Numbered from the stretch's first letter, positions 564-22,122 are shown. The stretch is 22,203 nucleotides of DNA from a virus (IMGVR_UViG_3300032050_000890:1-22203); one strand, 5' to 3'. Numbers and translations are program-made. The notes: generated by a model not told the origin, from the sequence alone.

Positions 564-1331
564 TTAAAATCCAAAAAATTGTGAAGCTTTTTGTAAATTT
601 TTATTTGGTAAATCCCACTTCATCGCATTATAGAAATCATCTATTTTGTTTTGAAGAGCACCTTCCCAAATAGCATCCAAGTCGGTGTAATCGTTAATTA
701 TTTTTTCAATCTCCGGCGGGTCATTCCACCCTGTAAAACCAACGGTGTCTAACCCCAAATTGTTTCTTTTCAAATAAACCCACTTAATCTTATCACCATC
801 TTTCATTGGTTCAAATTTAAATGGACATTTGTAGTATTTCAATAGTTGATTATATGCAATGGCTGATTTGACATGCGCAGGTGTTCCTTTAGGGAACTTA
901 CCCAATGAATATGTACCATCATCATACTTACTCAATTCTTTTACAGCGGAGTTCTTTGCTATATCCTTCTTTGGTTGAGTTTCCATCCCCTCCTTAAAAT
1001 CTAATATCTTCTTATCAATATCACTCTTATTTACCCCTTTTAAGATATCCGATAGAACCTGCTCCATCACACCCTTAAAGTAAGTTGGAAAATCAGAGCG
1101 TTTAACATCCAATCCCTTTGCATCAATCTTATCACAGGGGACGGTGTTATCATTGATAATCCATTGAGCATATCGTTTTTTGGCAACCCAAAACCCAGAC
1201 TTAGCAATCGTTTCCTGCTTAATATCAAATCGGTGTTTCTCTATATTGAACAACCTTTTTGACATTACATCATAGGTTTTATTAATATGCTCCTGCACCT
1301 CCTTTGCAACTGATAGGATAGCGGGCACCAT
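564..1331 (-). CDS. Family B DNA polymerase, C-terminal fragment (palm end and thumb)
   Basis: This 255-residue protein matches the C-terminal part of T4 gp43-type polymerase. It has the GFWVAKKRYAQW segment (KKRY motif of the palm/thumb), SKYDDGTYSLGKFPKGTPAH, an AYNQLLK block, and a C-terminal end (ASQFFGF) like the clamp-binding tail of T4-type enzymes. The first ATG is at 1331, but the reading frame is open back to 1454. It encodes polymerase sequence upstream of that ATG, including TDSVFYEALPLV with the motif C aspartate (TDS codons at 1409-1401). A protein starting at 1331 would therefore lack motif C and could not complete the active site alone. The N-terminal half is at 2323-4074, with an endonuclease gene between. 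Whether the halves are joined by splicing, pair as a two-subunit enzyme, or are non-functional cannot be decided from sequence. Confidence 0.8.
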   Translation of the reverse strand: MVPAILSVAKEVQEHINKTYDVMSKRLFNIEKHRFDIKQETIAKSGFWVAKKRYAQWIINDNTVPCDKIDAKGLDVKRSDFPTYFKGVMEQVLSDILKGVNKSDIDKKILDFKEGMETQPKKDIAKNSAVKELSKYDDGTYSLGKFPKGTPAHVKSAIAYNQLLKYYKCPFKFEPMKDGDKIKWVYLKRNNLGLDTVGFTGWNDPPEIEKIINDYTDLDAIWEGALQNKIDDFYNAMKWDLPNKNLQKASQFFGF

Positions 1332-1408
1332 TTCCTCATCTGATTGTTCATTGATAGTTGGGTTTCGGTGCTTTACAAGCGGAAGAGCTTCATAAAATAC
1401 AGAATCAG

Positions 1409-1474
1409 TTAGGTGTCGGTGTAGACATTGTAGTCCACACCGACATTTTTCTTTTTAATTGTTTTTATTTTCAT
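1409..1474 (-). other. Mini-ORF carrying the upstream half of polymerase motif C (VYTDT, then stop)
   Basis: An ATG at 1474 overlaps the end of the endonuclease gene and opens a 21-codon frame, MKIKTIKKKNVG followed by VDYNVYTDT, then TAA. The final residues look like the strand leading into the motif C YxDTDS of a family B polymerase. DSVFY resumes 5 nt later in another frame, the frame of the C-terminal fragment. Deleting the 5 nt (TAACT) or a -1 shift at the stop would fuse this peptide to that fragment. The KIKTIKKKNVG part also resembles the start of a short C-intein. Either way it is a remnant of the join between the two polymerase halves. There is no independent evidence that it is translated. 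Confidence 0.4.
1414..1445. repeat. 13-bp inverted repeat (hairpin) at the polymerase fracture
   Basis: The arms are 1414-1426 and 1433-1445, with a 6-nt loop. Read on the minus strand, the inner arms are GTCGGTGTGGAC and GTCTACACCGAC, with one G-U wobble. On the plus strand that position is an A-C mismatch, so the minus-strand RNA forms the better hairpin. The 3' arm is also the sequence that encodes VYTD of polymerase motif C. The stem is GC-rich in an AT-rich genome. No U-run follows it on the minus strand, so it is not a normal terminator for the endonuclease gene. On the plus strand a T-rich stretch follows, but no plus-strand gene lies there. Confidence 0.7.
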
Positions 1475-2282
1475 AAATTGTTATATTTCCTCTATAATCT
1501 ATTCTTACAAACTTACAGTTTAATTGTGAGATAATCAAATTCATACGCCAAACATCCTTTGAATGTAATTCATCTTTTCTAAAATGATGTGGCTCATCAT
1601 ATTCTATTACAACATTATTTTTAATATCAAACCCATCTACAAAAAATGTAGTGTTTGGGACTTGATACTCCCCACCGTTTTCAGCATGCTGAAAAGTATA
1701 TCCATTTTCTTTACCATATTGCTCTATAATCGGTATTGAGTTTGGATTATAAAAATGTGGAGCGCCATCCCTTTTAACACGTTCAATAGCAGATTTACGC
1801 ATTCTTTCCAACTCTTCCGGTCTTTTTTTTCGTCTATAATTACCATTATCAGCACCATACCGTGCCTTTCGCTTAGATAATTCAAAATTCATACTATCGG
1901 CCACATCACGTCCATATTTTTCAATCCAAACCTTATAATATGATGAACCATAATTACCATTTAATTTACCAATATTACCACGTTTCTTATTATATTCATT
2001 AAAATCACTCTCATTCCAACCAAACTTATCTCTTTTATATTCGTAAGAATTACTATAAGCTTGTTTATATTTATATGTCTCCCATCTAATAAGTCCTTCA
2101 CACTCACCATATTTATTTTGTAAATTTTCAAGAGTTACCCTTTTTAAATAAGTTGTTTCGATATCGTGTAATGGTTCATTTGGAAATTTTTTAATATAAT
2201 CGGCAACACTCATATTATGATGTTTTAAATGAGTTGCGGTTATACTTTTATACTTTTGATTACATATTTTACATTCAATCAT
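1455..2282 (-). CDS. Homing endonuclease, Vsr/EDxHD-type, inserted between polymerase halves
   Basis: This 275-residue protein has three recognisable parts. Residues 1-35 form a Ros/MucR-like zinc finger (C4-x2-C7, H18, H21/H22, then SVADYIKKFP). Residues about 50-165 repeat the KYGE-EGL-RWE and YSNSYEYKRDKFGW patterns and the GxxNGNY (NUMOD3-like) DNA-binding motifs common in homing endonucleases. Residues about 205-265 have VDGFDIKNNVVIEYDEPHHF, K-D-x-x-R and CKFVRIDY, the PD-(D/E)xK-related core of the Vsr-like or EDxHD endonucleases. Such enzymes are known between the halves of genes interrupted by split inteins. It lies between the N- and C-terminal pieces of polB, 40 nt after the first. 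Its stop codon is in the same frame as the following polymerase fragment. It probably cleaves intact polB alleles near the motif C codons. Confidence 0.85.
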   Translation of the reverse strand: MIECKICNQKYKSITATHLKHHNMSVADYIKKFPNEPLHDIETTYLKRVTLENLQNKYGECEGLIRWETYKYKQAYSNSYEYKRDKFGWNESDFNEYNKKRGNIGKLNGNYGSSYYKVWIEKYGRDVADSMNFELSKRKARYGADNGNYRRKKRPEELERMRKSAIERVKRDGAPHFYNPNSIPIIEQYGKENGYTFQHAENGGEYQVPNTTFFVDGFDIKNNVVIEYDEPHHFRKDELHSKDVWRMNLIISQLNCKFVRIDYRGNITIYENKNN

Positions 2283-2322
2283 ATACAGATACCCCCATGT
2301 CTTTATACATAAATAGTAGTAA

Positions 2323-4074
2323 TTAAATTAAAACATCATCATTTTCGGTTAATTCTGAAACTTTTTTCGTTAAACCATTTGCGAGCTTTACCATAGTATT
2401 ACTACCCATTTGGATAGTCTTTCCGTTTTCCAACGTTATATCATATATTTCACCAATTAAGTTGGTATAATACTGATTCGCAATCTTTTCAGTAGTTTGA
2501 ATAACAGTTTTTCCCGTAATTGTAACTGCTTCTGCGTTATCAACATCATAGAATCTAAACGATGGTAATCCTAACACACCATATAATGAGTTAAGCATAA
2601 TCTTTTGGACAAGTTGGCGTTGGGAATAAAACTTATACAAATCTTTATTACCCTCTTTACCATACTTTTTCATCAAATCTTTATACTCAACCCTTTTATC
2701 AAACCACACATTTAGGATTTCAGGTATTACTCCCACCTGCTGATTTGAGTATATAACTCCATTTGAAGCAACAGAATAATTGTTGGATTTTATCAACTCA
2801 TTAAACTCACTATGCACTAATGGTGGTAATTGATTACTCTCATCATCAACCACAACATAAAGTTCAATTTTATTCTTTACATATTCCTCACTCGTAAACC
2901 CTTTAACCTTACCAACCTTTGTTTCAGGACTGATATTCAAACTCATAATAATGGATGGATATAGAGATGTTAAATCCAAGTCATACAACCATTGGTATAA
3001 GCCTGGTACAGGCTCTTTCACATACGCACCTTCAAACTTACCCTCACTATCCTCACCTTTCCTTTTTGGTTTGTTAGGAGCAACCCTACCACTTCTACGC
3101 AAGAATGTGAGTATCGCACCCTCTAACCACTTAGATGAAAATAAGAAATCTTCATAAGGAACATGCCCCGCGTGACATATCGCTCTAGCCAAATCAATGA
3201 ATTGGAGTTTTGCATCCAAGTCCACAACCAATTTAACATCTTCAACATTGTACTCAATGAATCGTTCCAAGTCATCTCGCATCAATTGGTCTAAGTTTCC
3301 CGTATATTGAACCTTACCCCTACCCAACTCTAACTTTGAAATGGTATCCAGTCGGTAATTAGGAAATTCCTGATAAGTGTAGGTTTTGTAAAGAGCAAGG
3401 TAATCTAAGCAAGAAACACCTGCTATCACATAACGCTCTCTATTTTTTAGGTAATCCACCTTTCCTATAGGTGATAGGGAATTAGCATTCTTATGCCCCA
3501 ATACCTTTTTTAACCTATTGTAAAGGTATGGTATATCAAAGAAATCAATATTCCACCCAGTTACAATTGTTGGATTTATTTCCTGCCACTTTTGAAGAAA
3601 TGCCCACAACAAATCTCTTTCGTTGTTGTATATGTTTACTTCTGCACCGCCAATAGTTTTGTTCAGTTTGGTATCACCCAAAACATAAACAAAATAATCT
3701 CCAGTCGCAGAGTCGTGTGCTGCGATGGAGGTTATACTATTATCGGCTTTTTCAACATTTGGGAGACCTGTATTCATCTCCACCTCAATATCAAATGTCA
3801 ATACAACATTCCCCGTTGAAACATCATCGGATGTTCCATACTCATCAATCAGAAATCGGGTGTAATCATTTACATCAGATTCATATAATTCTAAATTGGT
3901 ATCCTTTTCCCAATAAGTAAGCTTCTTTAAGCGTTTACCATATATAGAAAAATAAGAACCATTTCCATCAGGTGTGTAGGCGTATCTACTATACTTTTTA
4001 ATATAGTATCCTTTAACATCATCCCAACAGTGTATTGTGTTTGTTTCTTTATCATAGTATAGATTCTGATACAT
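2323..4074 (-). CDS. Family B DNA polymerase, N-terminal fragment (exonuclease, motifs A and B) with intein-like tail
   Basis: This 583-residue piece carries a complete 3'-5' exonuclease: Exo I FDIEVE at 95-97, Exo II NIDFFD around 175-180 and Exo III YNVEDV around 275-280. Polymerase motif A DLTSLYPSI begins at D367 and motif B KIMLNSLYG is at 491-499. T4 gp43-type proteins are about 900 residues; here the native sequence stops near NQYYTNLIG (about 541), just before motif C. Residues 541-583 (IYDITLENGKTI... SELTENDDVLI) resemble the second half of an N-intein, ending where split N-inteins usually end. The N-terminal Cys half and the block B TxxH are absent. The gene overlaps the glycosyltransferase gene by 23 nt at its start, and an endonuclease gene follows. 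Alone it lacks the second catalytic aspartate. Confidence 0.9.
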   Translation of the reverse strand: MYQNLYYDKETNTIHCWDDVKGYYIKKYSRYAYTPDGNGSYFSIYGKRLKKLTYWEKDTNLELYESDVNDYTRFLIDEYGTSDDVSTGNVVLTFDIEVEMNTGLPNVEKADNSITSIAAHDSATGDYFVYVLGDTKLNKTIGGAEVNIYNNERDLLWAFLQKWQEINPTIVTGWNIDFFDIPYLYNRLKKVLGHKNANSLSPIGKVDYLKNRERYVIAGVSCLDYLALYKTYTYQEFPNYRLDTISKLELGRGKVQYTGNLDQLMRDDLERFIEYNVEDVKLVVDLDAKLQFIDLARAICHAGHVPYEDFLFSSKWLEGAILTFLRRSGRVAPNKPKRKGEDSEGKFEGAYVKEPVPGLYQWLYDLDLTSLYPSIIMSLNISPETKVGKVKGFTSEEYVKNKIELYVVVDDESNQLPPLVHSEFNELIKSNNYSVASNGVIYSNQQVGVIPEILNVWFDKRVEYKDLMKKYGKEGNKDLYKFYSQRQLVQKIMLNSLYGVLGLPSFRFYDVDNAEAVTITGKTVIQTTEKIANQYYTNLIGEIYDITLENGKTIQMGSNTMVKLANGLTKKVSELTENDDVLI

Positions 4075-5179
4075 CTAATATCCTTCCTTTAAAATTGTTT
4101 TCTATATCCCAGCTTTTTAGTTGGTTTTCCCAACTCAATTTTGAAACCCATTTTGTTAAATCGGGTCTATTAACTTTTTTATCTAATAAATCATTTATCA
4201 TTTGTTCAAATTCGCTCTTACTATTATACAAAAAGGGGTATTCATTTCCAACCATTTCTGGATAACAAAAATCATTTGGTAGTAAGTATGGAACTCCTCT
4301 GCTTAAACCATCTGTTGTAGACATTGACCATGCGGAATATTTTTGGAAACACCCTACACCAAAATGTGCTTTTGATAGTTGGGTTAAGTAAACTTCCCTA
4401 TCAGCGTGTCCTATGTATTCTGTATATGGTTTGGGTAAATCTCTTAATGTAGTCAATACTTTAAAGTCTTTTCTTTTTTCCCATAAATTATCCATAATTT
4501 CAAAAAACCAATCAGCCCCAGTGTAAGCATCGTTTCGGTGATTAAACACTATTGTCTTTTCTCTATACCCAGCTGATGGTTTGTATTCATCTGCACCCAA
4601 ATACCAAGGTTGAATAATCTTATCTAATTTTTCAATTATATGGGGTTGAAAATCTTCGGATGCCCTTTTCAGTATTAAATCTTTTACCCATTGTGAATTT
4701 ACACCACACACCCTCATATTTAACATACCTCTTATATTTCTCCAAAAAGAATTATCATCTCTGGCGCCATTATCAGGTATTTCCCACCAATGCGAATATC
4801 CTATAATTGGTTGAGTTTTGTTGTAAATACGAGTAATTTTATATTCATTCGTCCATTCGGGTAAATGCGACCATATTAAGTTAAATTCGCCATTGTATTT
4901 ACCAATAATTCTATCAAAAAATTTATGTGGATAATCCACCCGCATTTTTGGTGGAAAGCAATCCAATCCATCCATTTTCACTAACTTAACATTCGGATAC
5001 TCAAACTGATTGATAATACCCGGATGATTATTCAAATCGGGATAAGGTAGAATCCATTCCCATTCCTTACCAATTTGAGTGTTATCTAAAAAGGATTTGA
5101 ACACCAATAGGAACGAATCCCTATTGATGTCCTTTGCCATCCCAAAGTTTGTATAATTAGGTATTATTAATGCTCTCAT
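4052..5179 (-). CDS. GT-B-fold glycosyltransferase-like protein
   Basis: This 375-residue protein has no signal peptide or membrane segment. The C-terminal half looks like a GT4-type nucleotide-sugar domain. KTIVFNHRNDAYTGADWFFEIMD starts it at about 210, followed by a middle segment with YTEYIGHADREVYLTQLSKAHFGVG. The donor-site loop STTDGLSRGVPYLLPNDFCYPEMVG is at about 290-315 and resembles the (E/D)xxxxGxPV loop of this family. The N-terminal half (NLIWSHLPEW, IIGYSHWWEIPDN) would be the acceptor domain. It lies 3 nt after the 657-residue gene and overlaps the polymerase start by 23 nt, so it belongs to the same operon. Phage enzymes of this fold glucosylate modified bases or decorate the virion. 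Its position next to replication genes and Mom-like genes favours DNA modification, but this is inference. Confidence 0.6.
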   Translation of the reverse strand: MRALIIPNYTNFGMAKDINRDSFLLVFKSFLDNTQIGKEWEWILPYPDLNNHPGIINQFEYPNVKLVKMDGLDCFPPKMRVDYPHKFFDRIIGKYNGEFNLIWSHLPEWTNEYKITRIYNKTQPIIGYSHWWEIPDNGARDDNSFWRNIRGMLNMRVCGVNSQWVKDLILKRASEDFQPHIIEKLDKIIQPWYLGADEYKPSAGYREKTIVFNHRNDAYTGADWFFEIMDNLWEKRKDFKVLTTLRDLPKPYTEYIGHADREVYLTQLSKAHFGVGCFQKYSAWSMSTTDGLSRGVPYLLPNDFCYPEMVGNEYPFLYNSKSEFEQMINDLLDKKVNRPDLTKWVSKLSWENQLKSWDIENNFKGRILDVSESIL

Positions 5180-9002: not shown

Positions 9003-9806
9003 TCACCAAAAATTGACACCACTTTGTTCGGGCTGATAGGTGGTTTCGTGTCTCTCTATTTGAGGTATAAACTCTTCAGCATTTTTGGGATAATCCCTTA
9101 TTTCGTGCTTCAGTTTTGAATACAACTCCCTCTTTTCTTTCTTATTTTGAGCAACGATTTGAACATACCTATGTTTATCAGGCTCTTTCCTCCGCCAAAA
9201 AGCAGGATAACCCTCCTTACCAATCTCCTTTTTCAAATGGTCTAAATTATTACTACCCCACTTACTGAATACTGTCCTACTATGTATCCACTTATACGGA
9301 TTTTCTGTCAGAGATATCCCGTAGTTCGGCATCAGCGCAATTTCTGAGGACACCCCTTGGTAAATCCAATTGGTTGCCTGATAGATTTTGCCTAAATGCT
9401 CTTGTCCACTATCTGCATAAGATATCAGTAGTTTGATTTCCTTATCGTTTTCTCTGAACCATTTGAATGTTTGTCCAATAGCATAACTTTCAATGTTTGA
9501 ACCATACCCATCATGCACAAATAATCGGGTCAACTCTAATGCATTATCTTTAGATAACCCCTCACAAATTGAGGTTGCTGCTTTCGCACCAACGGGAAAC
9601 CCATAAATTGCGCATCCTATCAACTTTTCTGAATTACCAAATACATCATTTTCATCACCACTATAAAATATCCCAAATGCGTATCGGCACATTGTCCATG
9701 CGTGGGTATAGTGATAGGTTACAATCATATCCTTTGCTGTTGATTTAGCAATTGGATGTACCCTAACACGATTTACATCACAGTATTCTTTACCTTCAAT
9801 TTTCAT
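9003..9806 (-). CDS. Mom-like DNA modification acyltransferase, paralog 1
   Basis: This 267-residue protein has the Mom signature. Near the N-terminus is AKDMIVTYHYTHAW with a conserved His at 32. The middle has LELTRLFVHDGYGSNIESYAIGQTF, KLLISYADSGQEHLGKIYQATNWIYQG and, later, WIHSRTVFSKWG. The ending FWRRKEPDKHRYVQIV and LKHEIRDYPK matches its neighbour. Mu Mom is a GNAT-like transferase that converts adenine to N6-carbamoylmethyladenine, which protects phage DNA from restriction. The same chemistry is plausible here but not proven. It overlaps the upstream paralog by 11 nt, so the two are translationally coupled. The pair arose by tandem duplication and then diverged strongly. Confidence 0.8.
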   Translation of the reverse strand: MKIEGKEYCDVNRVRVHPIAKSTAKDMIVTYHYTHAWTMCRYAFGIFYSGDENDVFGNSEKLIGCAIYGFPVGAKAATSICEGLSKDNALELTRLFVHDGYGSNIESYAIGQTFKWFRENDKEIKLLISYADSGQEHLGKIYQATNWIYQGVSSEIALMPNYGISLTENPYKWIHSRTVFSKWGSNNLDHLKKEIGKEGYPAFWRRKEPDKHRYVQIVAQNKKEKRELYSKLKHEIRDYPKNAEEFIPQIERHETTYQPEQSGVNFW

Positions 9807-10557
9807 TTGATATAGGTTCTAATTTGTGTATTTCTTCCGTAATAATTTCACTTACCTTTGGATATGGTTGTAAGGGATGTTTTATACTATTCAGTATTTT
9901 CTTCCTATTCTTTTTATCCAATATGTAAAAATATCTATGTTTCTTTGGCTCTCGCCGAATCCAAAATGGTTTTGTTATTACCTTTTGTATCTGCTTTGGG
10001 TCATTTGTTCCATACCTAACAAACGATGTTCTACTATGAAACCAATCACCATCCTCATCCCACCTAAAACTCCAACTATCAGTCCATCGTAAATTATTAC
10101 CCTGATACAACCAATTGGTAGATTGATACACCGTTCCCAAATGCCCTTCTTTCGGGTCTGAATATGATATAAGTGCCCTAATATGAGGTGTGTTTTTCTT
10201 TAACCAATCAAATGTTTGAGAAACAAACCAACTCTCAATATTACACCCATACCCATCTTCAATCCATAAGCGGGTCAACTCCAGCACCTCCGTCCGTTCT
10301 AAAAGTTCGGATATGGAGGTGCCAGAATTTCTACCCACTGGGTCACCATAACAGGCAACCCCCACCAATTTTTCATTAACCCCACCGAAAAATTGGTGTT
10401 CCCCCTCATCTAAATAAAATAAACCAATTGAGTAACTAACTTTTGTCCATAAGTGGCTGTAGTGATTTTTTATAATCATCTCCTTTGCCACCGATTTACT
10501 AATCAACCTTACACAAAATTTGGATACATCTGAATAGTTTTTACCCTCTACTTTCAT
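9796..10557 (-). CDS. Mom-like DNA modification acyltransferase, paralog 2
   Basis: This 253-residue protein is the tandem paralog of the gene at 9003-9806. It shares the MKVEGKNYSDVSKF start, AKEMIIKNHYSHLW with His32, VLELTRLWIEDGYGCNIESWFVSQTFDW, ALISYSDPKEGHLGTVYQSTNWLYQG, WFHSRTSFVRYGTND and FWIRREPKKHRYFYIL. The middle region differs in a loop (RWTDSWSFRWDEDGD). The family link is to Mom of phage Mu (GNAT-like DNA adenine modification). Two copies may form a heteromer, or modify different sequence contexts. The start overlaps the end of the HTH gene by 17 nt, so it continues the nrd-thioredoxin-MazG operon. Confidence 0.8.
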   Translation of the reverse strand: MKVEGKNYSDVSKFCVRLISKSVAKEMIIKNHYSHLWTKVSYSIGLFYLDEGEHQFFGGVNEKLVGVACYGDPVGRNSGTSISELLERTEVLELTRLWIEDGYGCNIESWFVSQTFDWLKKNTPHIRALISYSDPKEGHLGTVYQSTNWLYQGNNLRWTDSWSFRWDEDGDWFHSRTSFVRYGTNDPKQIQKVITKPFWIRREPKKHRYFYILDKKNRKKILNSIKHPLQPYPKVSEIITEEIHKLEPISNEN

Positions 10558-10741
10558 AAGGCCATGTTAGTATATGTTTCCAAGTATAACCCTTAACGAT
10601 TTTACGAATATTAGCAGGTGAAACACCATTGTTCCTTGCAAGGACTCTGATGTTTCTATGTCCAACACTCCACAACTCACGAATAGATTTTACCTGCCCC
10701 TCCGTAAGTTTATGTTTTGGATGAGATTCACCACACAACAT
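10541..10741 (-). CDS. Small helix-turn-helix DNA-binding protein (66 aa)
   Basis: The protein starts MLCGESHPKHKLTEGQVKSI and continues RELWSVGHRNIRVLARNNGVSPANIRKIVKGYTWKHI. This is the helix-turn-helix often appended to HNH or GIY-YIG homing endonucleases (KLTxxxVxxIRxL ... LAxxxGVSxxxIxxIxxGxxWxxI), but no nuclease domain is attached. I chose the ATG at 10741, which follows the MazG stop after one base; the longer frame starts with a TTG at 10816 inside MazG. It overlaps the Mom-like gene by 17 nt. It may regulate the operon or be the remnant of a homing endonuclease. The gene is small, so confidence is moderate. Confidence 0.6.
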   Translation of the reverse strand: MLCGESHPKHKLTEGQVKSIRELWSVGHRNIRVLARNNGVSPANIRKIVKGYTWKHILTWPYESRG

Positions 10742-10742
10742 A

Positions 10743-11177
10743 TTAAATCTCCTCATTAAAAGGAATTTCAGTTTGTGAGTTCTTTGCTTCCCAAAATTTA
10801 TAAACGATTTTTCCAATATCAGGCTTTCTATAGTTCGGACCTTTTAAGATTTTACCATCCTCTCTATAAATTGGATTACCATTTTCATCCAACTTTGACA
10901 TATTGGAACTATGTACTTCATCAAATACATCCTCAATAATATCACCCATCCCATGTTGTAGAATTGTTCCTAATAAGATGTATAATTGGTCGGTGAGAGC
11001 GTCTGCAATACCAACCGGGTCATCATTCTGATTTGCCTCTTTGTACTCGTTTAACTCTTCCAAACCAAGCCTATACCTCAAATCGCATATTTCATCCGAT
11101 TGAACCATTGGGCTTTTGTAATACTTCTGACCATATACCTCGTGAAATTGCTTCACCTGCTCTAATTGCTTTTTCAT
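10743..11177 (-). CDS. MazG-like / phosphoribosyl-ATP pyrophosphohydrolase-like NTP pyrophosphatase
   Basis: This 144-residue all-alpha protein carries the MazG-superfamily metal-binding pattern. E-E-L-N-E (in GLEELNEYKEA) is followed by D-x-x-x-D in GIADALTDQLYILLG. It also has the SNMSKLDENGNPIYREDGKILKGPNY segment typical of phage members. These enzymes hydrolyse NTPs or dNTPs to NMP and PPi and can tune nucleotide or alarmone pools. Its place after nrdB-nrdA-thioredoxin supports a nucleotide-pool role. I use the ATG at 11177, because the upstream TTG at 11195 lies inside the promoter box. The promoter box ends 7 nt before this ATG, so the mRNA may be leaderless. Confidence 0.8.
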   Translation of the reverse strand: MKKQLEQVKQFHEVYGQKYYKSPMVQSDEICDLRYRLGLEELNEYKEANQNDDPVGIADALTDQLYILLGTILQHGMGDIIEDVFDEVHSSNMSKLDENGNPIYREDGKILKGPNYRKPDIGKIVYKFWEAKNSQTEIPFNEEI

Positions 11178-20919: not shown

Positions 20920-22122
20920 TTATATGGTAAACATATTCTTATAATCATCTCCAACCTCTACCTTTACAGGATATCCACCCCACTCCATAATCTCTTTTAC
21001 CTTTTGTGGATATGTATCTATTTCATCTTCGGATACATCAAATAGGATTGAGTCATAAGTGTAAAGAACAGGTACTGATTTATAACCCTCTAATTGTTTA
21101 CTTAGTTTATTTATAATAAGTATGTTTCTTTCCGTTTCTAATGCTTGTAAAATATAGTTAAATAGTTTATTTTTGTTCATTTCCGGCAGTTTTCTAATAA
21201 GCCGTTTAAATATTGGTGTTTCAACCCCAGCATTAAACAAATACTCATTCCATAACTTATCAATTATAATAGAAACCGATTCGTAGAATGGTATGTGTTT
21301 ATACTCATCCTGCACCCCACCATAGAGTTGTCTAAAGGTTATGGGTTTTGCTTGCTCCATAGGTACTCCATACTGTTGACCTAACCAATTGTGAGCGGAC
21401 ATGTCTATTGGTATAGGGCTTCCTATTAAACCTCCAATTAATCGGATGTGATACCCATCATAATCAAAACTGAATAACTTACCCCCAACAAATCGGGATA
21501 TAAACCTGCTTCGGGTATCATCCCCCTTTTTCAATGCAGCGTAATTAATACCATTGAAAGCATTGGAAGGGCGGGAGGTGGATGTTAAAAAATTATAGTG
21601 TGTCATTTCCAACCCATCTTTGGATTGAAATCCATTCTTTTCTATATTATAAAGTGAGTGTGGGTATAGTGTAGAAAATTTTGTAGGTTCTACATTGGTT
21701 GATTTAAATAACTTTTTCCATTCACCAAAGAACTCATAGTGTTTTAGTATAGGTATTAAATCTCCTACCTTTGGAATCCCCCTTCGTCTGAAAACATTGT
21801 GGATTGGTAATTCATCTACACTATATTCTAATCCCAAATGAAATAAGTATGCTTGTAAATCATAAAGATTATCAGTTTTGTAGTGATATAAAAACGATTT
21901 CAAATCTACCACAAATACCTTCTTAAATCTACTCAAGTCTAATTCCCCACCAAATGGTTCTACATCCAAGTTTTTGTAGTTGATACAGCAATCAATCTCC
22001 CCATCGGAAATGAATAGGCAAGATAATTCCGTTTGAGCAGAGTGTTTGCTCAAAGAACTATATATTGGATACACCAAAACCCTGTCCGCAGACAGGGTGG
22101 TTGAGATTTCATTAAAAATCAT
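20920..22122 (-). CDS. Family A DNA polymerase-like protein (polymerase domain only, altered motifs)
   Basis: This 400-residue protein has the order of a Pol I-type palm and fingers. Residues 180-187 read TSTSRPSN (cf. TxTGRxSS). Motif A is DYDGYHIRLIGG from D220. The O-helix motif B is K259-PIT-F263-RQL-Y267-G268. NYILQALETE follows near 322, and motif C is YDSILFDV with D357. Both catalytic aspartates and the K-x3-F-x3-YG pattern are kept. However, the Glu after motif A Asp (DYSQIE in Pol I) is His, and the HDE of motif C is YDS. No 3'-5' exonuclease is visible; the N-terminal 150 residues are divergent. Pol I is 928 residues. Its promoter box ends 4 nt before the ATG. It may be a specialised or alternative replicative polymerase. 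Confidence 0.75.
   Translation of the reverse strand: MIFNEISTTLSADRVLVYPIYSSLSKHSAQTELSCLFISDGEIDCCINYKNLDVEPFGGELDLSRFKKVFVVDLKSFLYHYKTDNLYDLQAYLFHLGLEYSVDELPIHNVFRRRGIPKVGDLIPILKHYEFFGEWKKLFKSTNVEPTKFSTLYPHSLYNIEKNGFQSKDGLEMTHYNFLTSTSRPSNAFNGINYAALKKGDDTRSRFISRFVGGKLFSFDYDGYHIRLIGGLIGSPIPIDMSAHNWLGQQYGVPMEQAKPITFRQLYGGVQDEYKHIPFYESVSIIIDKLWNEYLFNAGVETPIFKRLIRKLPEMNKNKLFNYILQALETERNILIINKLSKQLEGYKSVPVLYTYDSILFDVSEDEIDTYPQKVKEIMEWGGYPVKVEVGDDYKNMFTI
22079..22098. repeat. 8-bp hairpin with UGCG tetraloop near the start of the family A polymerase-like gene
   Basis: On the minus strand, ACCCTGTC-TGCG-GACAGGGT lies 24-43 nt after the ATG A. The loop with its closing C-G pair matches the very stable C(UNCG)G tetraloop class. 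It is inside the coding region (codons 9-15, encoding TLSADRV) and could affect ribosome entry on this leaderless-looking mRNA. Confidence 0.7.

Follow-up and report, generated by a model that had tools for sequence, protein, structure and literature searches.

A gene for a family-B DNA polymerase (polB), broken just upstream of the catalytic motif C (YxDTDS), is present on the minus strand of the virus record IMGVR_UViG_3300032050_000890:1-22203, which was analysed over its entire 22,203 bases (the window) and whose minus strand carries T4-type replication genes (a UvsX-like recombinase, a DnaB-like helicase, SSB, NrdA and NrdB). The data point, with a probability of roughly 0.7, to a mobile cassette of split gene, endonuclease and ribosome hop having split polB, with the hop restoring the motif as YTDTDS and a dead Hint fold joining the two polymerase chains. 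That in at least six phage lineages such a cassette causes ribosomes to hop over 5 nucleotides (nt) in the catalytic motif, driven by a hairpin and with a dead split intein clamping the chains, and spreads with a homing endonuclease, is judged somewhat better than an even bet.

All features of the split gene lie on the minus strand. The N chain (2323-4074, 583 amino acids) comprises the exonuclease domain (PF03104, E=4e-27) and the part of PF00136 that extends to motif B, thus including motifs A and B, and its homologue from the related contig L105 models as the RB69 gp43 fold. A free-standing endonuclease gene of 275 codons (1455-2282) follows, and the C chain supplies the rest of PF00136. 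The fracture before motif C with an endonuclease in the gap had been recognized in the initial annotation, and its order of exonuclease, motifs A and B, endonuclease, motif C and thumb stands, but the start of the C chain at ATG 1474 and the in-frame stop with its 5 nt were missed. The split had also been equated with the classical pol-c intein site, which is incorrect, as the break lies upstream of DYNVYTDTDS and not at the junction of YTD and TDS. The C-chain open reading frame (ORF) as listed (564-1331) starts after motif C, and its frame stays open further upstream. Motif C itself, at approximately 1422-1404, is interrupted by a TAA. The 21-codon ORF that begins at ATG 1474 encodes the head of the C chain, MKIKTIKKKNVGVDYNVYTDT, and stops in the first half of the motif at TAA 1411-1409 (the whole feature, 1409-1474, is kept in the lineages described below), while the frame continuing with TDSVFYEALPLVKHRNP begins 2 nt past this stop (GAC ACC UA ACU GAU) and specifies the remainder of the palm and the thumb (564-1406, DSVFYEALP...). 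Within the window this resumed frame contains no ATG, GTG or TTG between its upstream stop and motif C. Intact sister phages (L004, L005, L013 and L056) read unbroken through ...GDYNIYTDTDSVYF..., relative to which the window allele has 5 extra nt inside motif C, including the in-frame UAA.

The codons flanking the stop suggest how it is passed. Both the proposed take-off codon, ACC (1412-1414), and the proposed landing codon, ACU (1407-1409), which lies 5 nt downstream and overlaps the last base of the stop, specify Thr. The same is true of 7/7 alleles, in which take-off and landing codons are ACC and ACU (the window and L049), ACG and ACU (L055 and L326), ACU and ACU (L105), ACG and ACC (L245), and ACC and ACC (L352); only L105 and L352 use identical codons. 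UAA directly follows the take-off codon in all seven, although for some of these the search patterns required it. Among the routes tabulated, YxDTDS resulted solely from a 5-nt hop between the two Thr codons. Readthrough leads out of frame, a +2 shift gives YxDTTDS and a −1 shift adds two residues. Ordinary +2 or −1 frameshifting across the stop would reach the right frame by either route, producing YTDTTDS or YTDTLTDS in the window; it would, however, add residues to a catalytic motif that is YxDTDS in all intact relatives sampled, and it creates no need for Thr at both flanking codons, yet Thr is found there in every lineage. Frameshifting is thus very unlikely.

A 13-bp hairpin (1414-1445) precedes the stop, its 3′ arm being formed by motif-C codons and reaching as far as the take-off codon's first base. 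Equivalent hairpins, ending at or beside the take-off codon, occur in 7/7 hop alleles (z scores of −4.5 to −9.1; the window hairpin scored −9.1 in one computation and −5.1 in another). The structure is absent from two split alleles that lack the stop (L457, and LR756508, which has an intein there) and from intact polB. Across six distinct hairpin bases 98% of the pairs are kept, and the three doubly changed pairs include G-C to C-G (L352), G-C to A-U (the window versus L105 and L245) and U-A to C-G (L055). The covariation score was reached by only 2 of 500 shuffles, and all slid registers scored far lower. As the hairpin adjoins the gap, and phages can encode RNA ligases, it is conceivable that splicing, or cleavage and ligation, takes the 5 nt out of the mRNA and so presents ribosomes with an intact motif C. 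No known intron is so small, however, and an Rfam search of the region returned no match up to E=1, on which ground a group I or group II intron or other known RNA was rejected. RNA removal also leaves the flanking Thr codons unexplained, whereas re-pairing of a tRNA accounts for them, and is regarded as extremely unlikely.

The arrangement is not confined to the window. The split and the 5-nt insert recur in contigs whose N chains are 100% (L002 and L061), 92% (L049) and 57% (L055) identical to that of the window, and pattern scans added L105, L245, L326 and L352, each with a stop and a 5-nt gap. L105 has no endonuclease between the halves, that of L245 is 50% identical to the window protein, and L326 and L352 retain endonuclease remnants. 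In total, at least six phage lineages, a lower bound set by the pattern scans, have two Thr codons bracketing a stop and a 5-nt gap, such that a hop would restore YxDTDS in every case, and further members of the group probably exist. The C chains of different hop lineages are 40-68% identical. The scans demanded TAAC after a Thr codon; the window, L049, L055 and L245, together with L457, which lacks the hop, were also recovered by protein scans blind to TAAC, and the hairpin, head, tail and endonuclease were never part of the pattern-scan terms. Because the same arrangement recurs in other contigs and lineages, it is not an assembly artefact, the possibility of a chimera having been raised when the fracture was first described. 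Among contigs of cellular genomes the hop pattern gave seven matches, none of them in polB, and no isolate phage with the hop was recognized, the closest isolate polB being that of Microcystis phage Mel-JY01. In L457 the split is of another kind, with the head and motif C in one ordinary frame and no 5-nt insert. In L457 (1914-5265) and L461, moreover, polB is in at least three pieces, being split also inside the finger region; both gaps are occupied by nuclease-like ORFs, and motif C is free of the 5-nt insert.

Purifying selection acts on the codons that precede the stop as well as on those that follow it. Over the 26 codons between the stop and ATG 1331, the window and L049 differ by 10 synonymous and 2 nonsynonymous changes, a ratio of nonsynonymous to synonymous rates (dN/dS) of 0.03. 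The value is 0.08 for the 21-codon head (versus L055), 0.07 for the endonuclease (versus L049) and 0.03-0.18 on every computable segment, with the exception of the N tail of the closest pair (0.34). These data bear on a further explanation, that translation of the C chain begins only at ATG 1331 and so omits motif C, with the ORF before it purely regulatory and the gene inactive or decaying. Gene callers would place the start at this ATG, and an in-frame stop inside an active-site motif would fit such a view; the conserved codons upstream of ATG 1331, the catalytic role of motif C and the occurrence of the arrangement in at least six lineages and several assemblies make it most improbable. In addition, none of nine split records examined (one of 174,750 bases) contains a second family-B polymerase, each holding pieces of one PolB only. 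Of the three fates for the gene offered in the initial annotation, a dying gene is therefore contradicted by the dN/dS values, and the best supported is a working two-part enzyme. There is precedent for activity in two-chain enzymes encoded by split phage genes (PMC2988022).

The third fate, trans-splicing, is addressed by the sequences that border the break. The N chain ends in a 43-residue tail (2326-2454), GEIYDITLENGKTIQMGSNTMVKLANGLTKKVSELTENDDVLI, which hhalign matched (P=1.7e-7) to the region of block B in polB inteins that genuinely splice in trans, and the tail and head together gave a profile score of 31.4 compared with ≤18.6 for 30 column-shuffled controls. In L105 the halves lie in one frame, 7 codons apart, and with the stop read through the tail and head were modelled as one (predicted local distance difference test score, pLDDT, 67); the best 20 PDB matches of this model were all inteins or hedgehog Hint domains (E 0.009-0.3, template-modelling score ~0.45-0.67), among them the Aes123 PolB1 split intein, 9hth. 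A conventional fractured gene, its halves joined by trans-splicing of a split intein at pol-c, would share with the window the site region, the endonuclease family and the intein-like tail and head. The residues required for splicing are missing, however. TxxH is replaced in 8/8 tails, whereas five genuine tails have TEDH; block A of the N-terminal intein half, with Cys or Ser at position 1, is absent, the N chain passing from extein straight into the block-B-like tail; and there is no C-terminal HN before Cys, Ser or Thr, the head, which resembles the first strand of the C-terminal intein half, running directly into motif C. With neither block A nor an HN and C-extein nucleophile junction in any of the eight tails and heads, and with the motif-C stop left in place even if splicing occurred, trans-splicing is barely credible. 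The structural and sequence matches suggest instead a split intein that has lost splicing and probably serves as a clamp between the two PolB chains.

The following sequence of events would be consistent with these observations. A mobile cassette of dead split-intein remnants, a free-standing endonuclease, the hairpin and the 5-nt stop insert would have split polB just upstream of motif C. The N chain would be translated from its own gene, ending in the intein-derived tail, and the C chain from ATG 1474. After ...Y-T-D-T the ribosome would have peptidyl-tRNA-Thr on ACC and UAA facing its A site; it would then release, slip 5 nt forward, re-pair on ACU and continue with GAU UCU..., thereby generating the catalytic YTDTDS. 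By re-forming in the wake of the ribosome, the hairpin probably either drives this forward movement or locks it in. The tail and head would meet as a splicing-dead Hint fold, holding both chains as one polymerase, and the 5-nt insert probably destroys the recognition site of motif-C endonucleases, so that it would travel and persist with the cassette. In this scheme the layout, its recurrence, the selection, the covariation and the fold matches are observations, whereas the hop, the joining of the chains and the protection against cutting are inferred.

Several observations weigh against this model. Part of the constancy of the 5-nt gap stems from the search, as the patterns that retrieved L105, L326 and L352 required TAAC. 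Consisting of only 5 nt, the gap carries no take-off stem-loop of the T4 kind, and at take-off the ribosome encloses the 3′ arm of the hairpin. Splits lacking a hop carry the basic nascent head to the same extent, so that the head is not by itself a specific nascent-peptide signal, and it was rejected as proof of hopping. In L055 and L326 a single tRNA-Thr would need to pair with both ACG and ACU. The tail-and-head model is of only moderate confidence and its fold matches have weak E-values.

The mobility of the cassette is suggested by sister phages L004 and L013, in which ~97% identical DNA on both sides of the break is separated by 22-24 bases, compared with 1,029 in the window (1437-2465, as defined by blastn). 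In the C-chain tree the window and L049 group with the intact L004, L055 is nested within a clade of intact genes and L245 lies beside the intact L059; the long branches of L105, L326 and L352 were not placed reliably, although the C chain of L105 is 86% identical to those of L180 and L181, members of a group in which polB is intact. As hop lineages are interleaved with intact ones, the cassette entered several lineages or was lost in many. Fractured genes with split inteins and a Vsr-like endonuclease were reportedly described by Dassa et al. in 2009, and the kinship with them that had been proposed for the window is upheld, its endonuclease aligning with those of split-intein polB genes at motif C (L458, L459, L460, L462 and L463; in L458, L460, L462 and L463 the genes are trans-splicing). 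The label 'Vsr-type' holds for relatives only (REase_MTES_1575 in L463, E=5e-6), as the window protein itself matches no Pfam nuclease and gave no result in PDB sequence searches. In L003 (7401-7602) a window-like N chain and tail (94%) are followed by the start of a GIY-YIG-like rather than Vsr-like endonuclease, at which point the contig ends; the endonuclease of the cassette thus seems exchangeable. L245 has a second related endonuclease-like ORF directly after the C chain (reverse strand, 1713-2462).

Motif C seems to be a shared target, because LR756508 (LR756508.1, a 484-kb phage; L174 and L175), which has the same tail and head, carries a complete pol-c intein in motif C where the window has the 5-nt gap, and an intein or a hop would each disrupt the motif. 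Another intein is located inside the LR756508.1 N chain at motif B, and its chains are ~2.5 kb apart with other genes between. By analogy with T4, in which the 50-nt insert of gene 60 has been proposed to have shielded against the endonuclease associated with its spread (PMC5009743), we infer that the hop insert may protect against cutting. In L105 the hop persists though no endonuclease remains between the halves.

In T4 a topoisomerase gene, gene 39, is split by mobA, and gene 60 contains a bypassed gap of 50 nt with matched codons, a stop after the take-off codon, a stem-loop on the 5′ side and a signal in the nascent peptide (PMC5009743, PMC11194080, PMC3014915). The polB cassette likewise splits an essential replication gene by ~1 kb with an endonuclease gene, and its insert lies near the start of the downstream gene, opens with an in-frame stop, is flanked by same-tRNA codons and is absent from relatives; a stem-loop lies 5′ of the take-off codon in both, that of the window differing in position by ending at this codon. 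In contrast to gene 60, the target is a DNA polymerase and not a topoisomerase, the gap is 5 nt and not 50, the codons specify Thr and not Gly, the endonuclease belongs to another family, the gap bears no take-off stem-loop, an intein-derived tail and head are present, and several lineages are involved. The cassette is best read, by this analogy, as the DNA-polymerase counterpart of T4 gene 39/mobA/gene 60, similar to gene 60 in its working but a distinct element. T4 gene 60 has so far been essentially the only well-proven example of programmed bypassing in phages; polB would be a candidate in another essential gene and in several lineages, and the natural variation of its take-off codons, landing codons and hairpins lends itself directly to comparison. 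According to a review of post-transcriptional control in T4, bypassing appears unique to gene 60, and its authors asked whether other T4-related phages have more (PMC3014915). If the hop is real, it supports the view that bypass gaps arise as endonuclease-linked cassettes, offers a very short and easily tested hop, and would show an intein turned from a splicing element into subunit glue.

Other known systems share parts of this arrangement. The fractured split-intein genes, for which Aes123 PolB1 served as a comparison system (PMC11923092), have the same gene order, a free-standing Vsr-like endonuclease gene separating the halves, the location at PolB motif C and sequences resembling the Hint-like remnants, but in the window the splicing residues are lost, motif C lies wholly on the C chain and a stop hop has been added. 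In Aeromonas phages 44RR and 25 polymerase is split into gp43A and gp43B, and the split enzyme is active (PMC2988022). Here too a T4-type PolB consists of two chains, with an endonuclease gene between them in phage 25; however, that split lies before motif B, and not between motifs B and C, phage 25 has an intron in motif B, and there is no motif-C hop. The 44RR/25 split was rejected as the same event, the site being different. The two-subunit PolB of Methanothermobacter, with motif C on its small subunit, had been put forward in the initial annotation as a possible parallel. Synthetic stop-hops, in which a short hop crosses a stop flanked by matched codons (PMC5009743), differ from the proposed polB hop, which would be a naturally occurring, conserved hop, tied to a hairpin and out of frame (8 nt per residue, not 9). 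No report of a split-polB hop system was found in the open-licence papers searched.

Elsewhere in the window, a 400-residue protein (20920-22122, minus strand) has a weak DNA polymerase A match in its C-terminal part (phrog_17, E=1e-9) and is possibly, from its sequence, a reduced or inactive PolA-like palm. It is kept at 37-81% identity in 10/10 related phage records searched. As these include relatives with intact polB, the protein was rejected as a polymerase substitute. A small ORF after the C chain of L352 (reverse strand, 4102-4302), GHRNIRVIARNYKVSTTNIRKIVKG, is nearly the same as one at 10541-10816 (minus strand) of the window, and may perhaps represent a mobile DNA-binding module. Positions 9003-10557 (minus strand) hold a pair of adjacent, overlapping genes for Mom-like DNA modification (phrog_1384, E=3e-46 and 1e-52).

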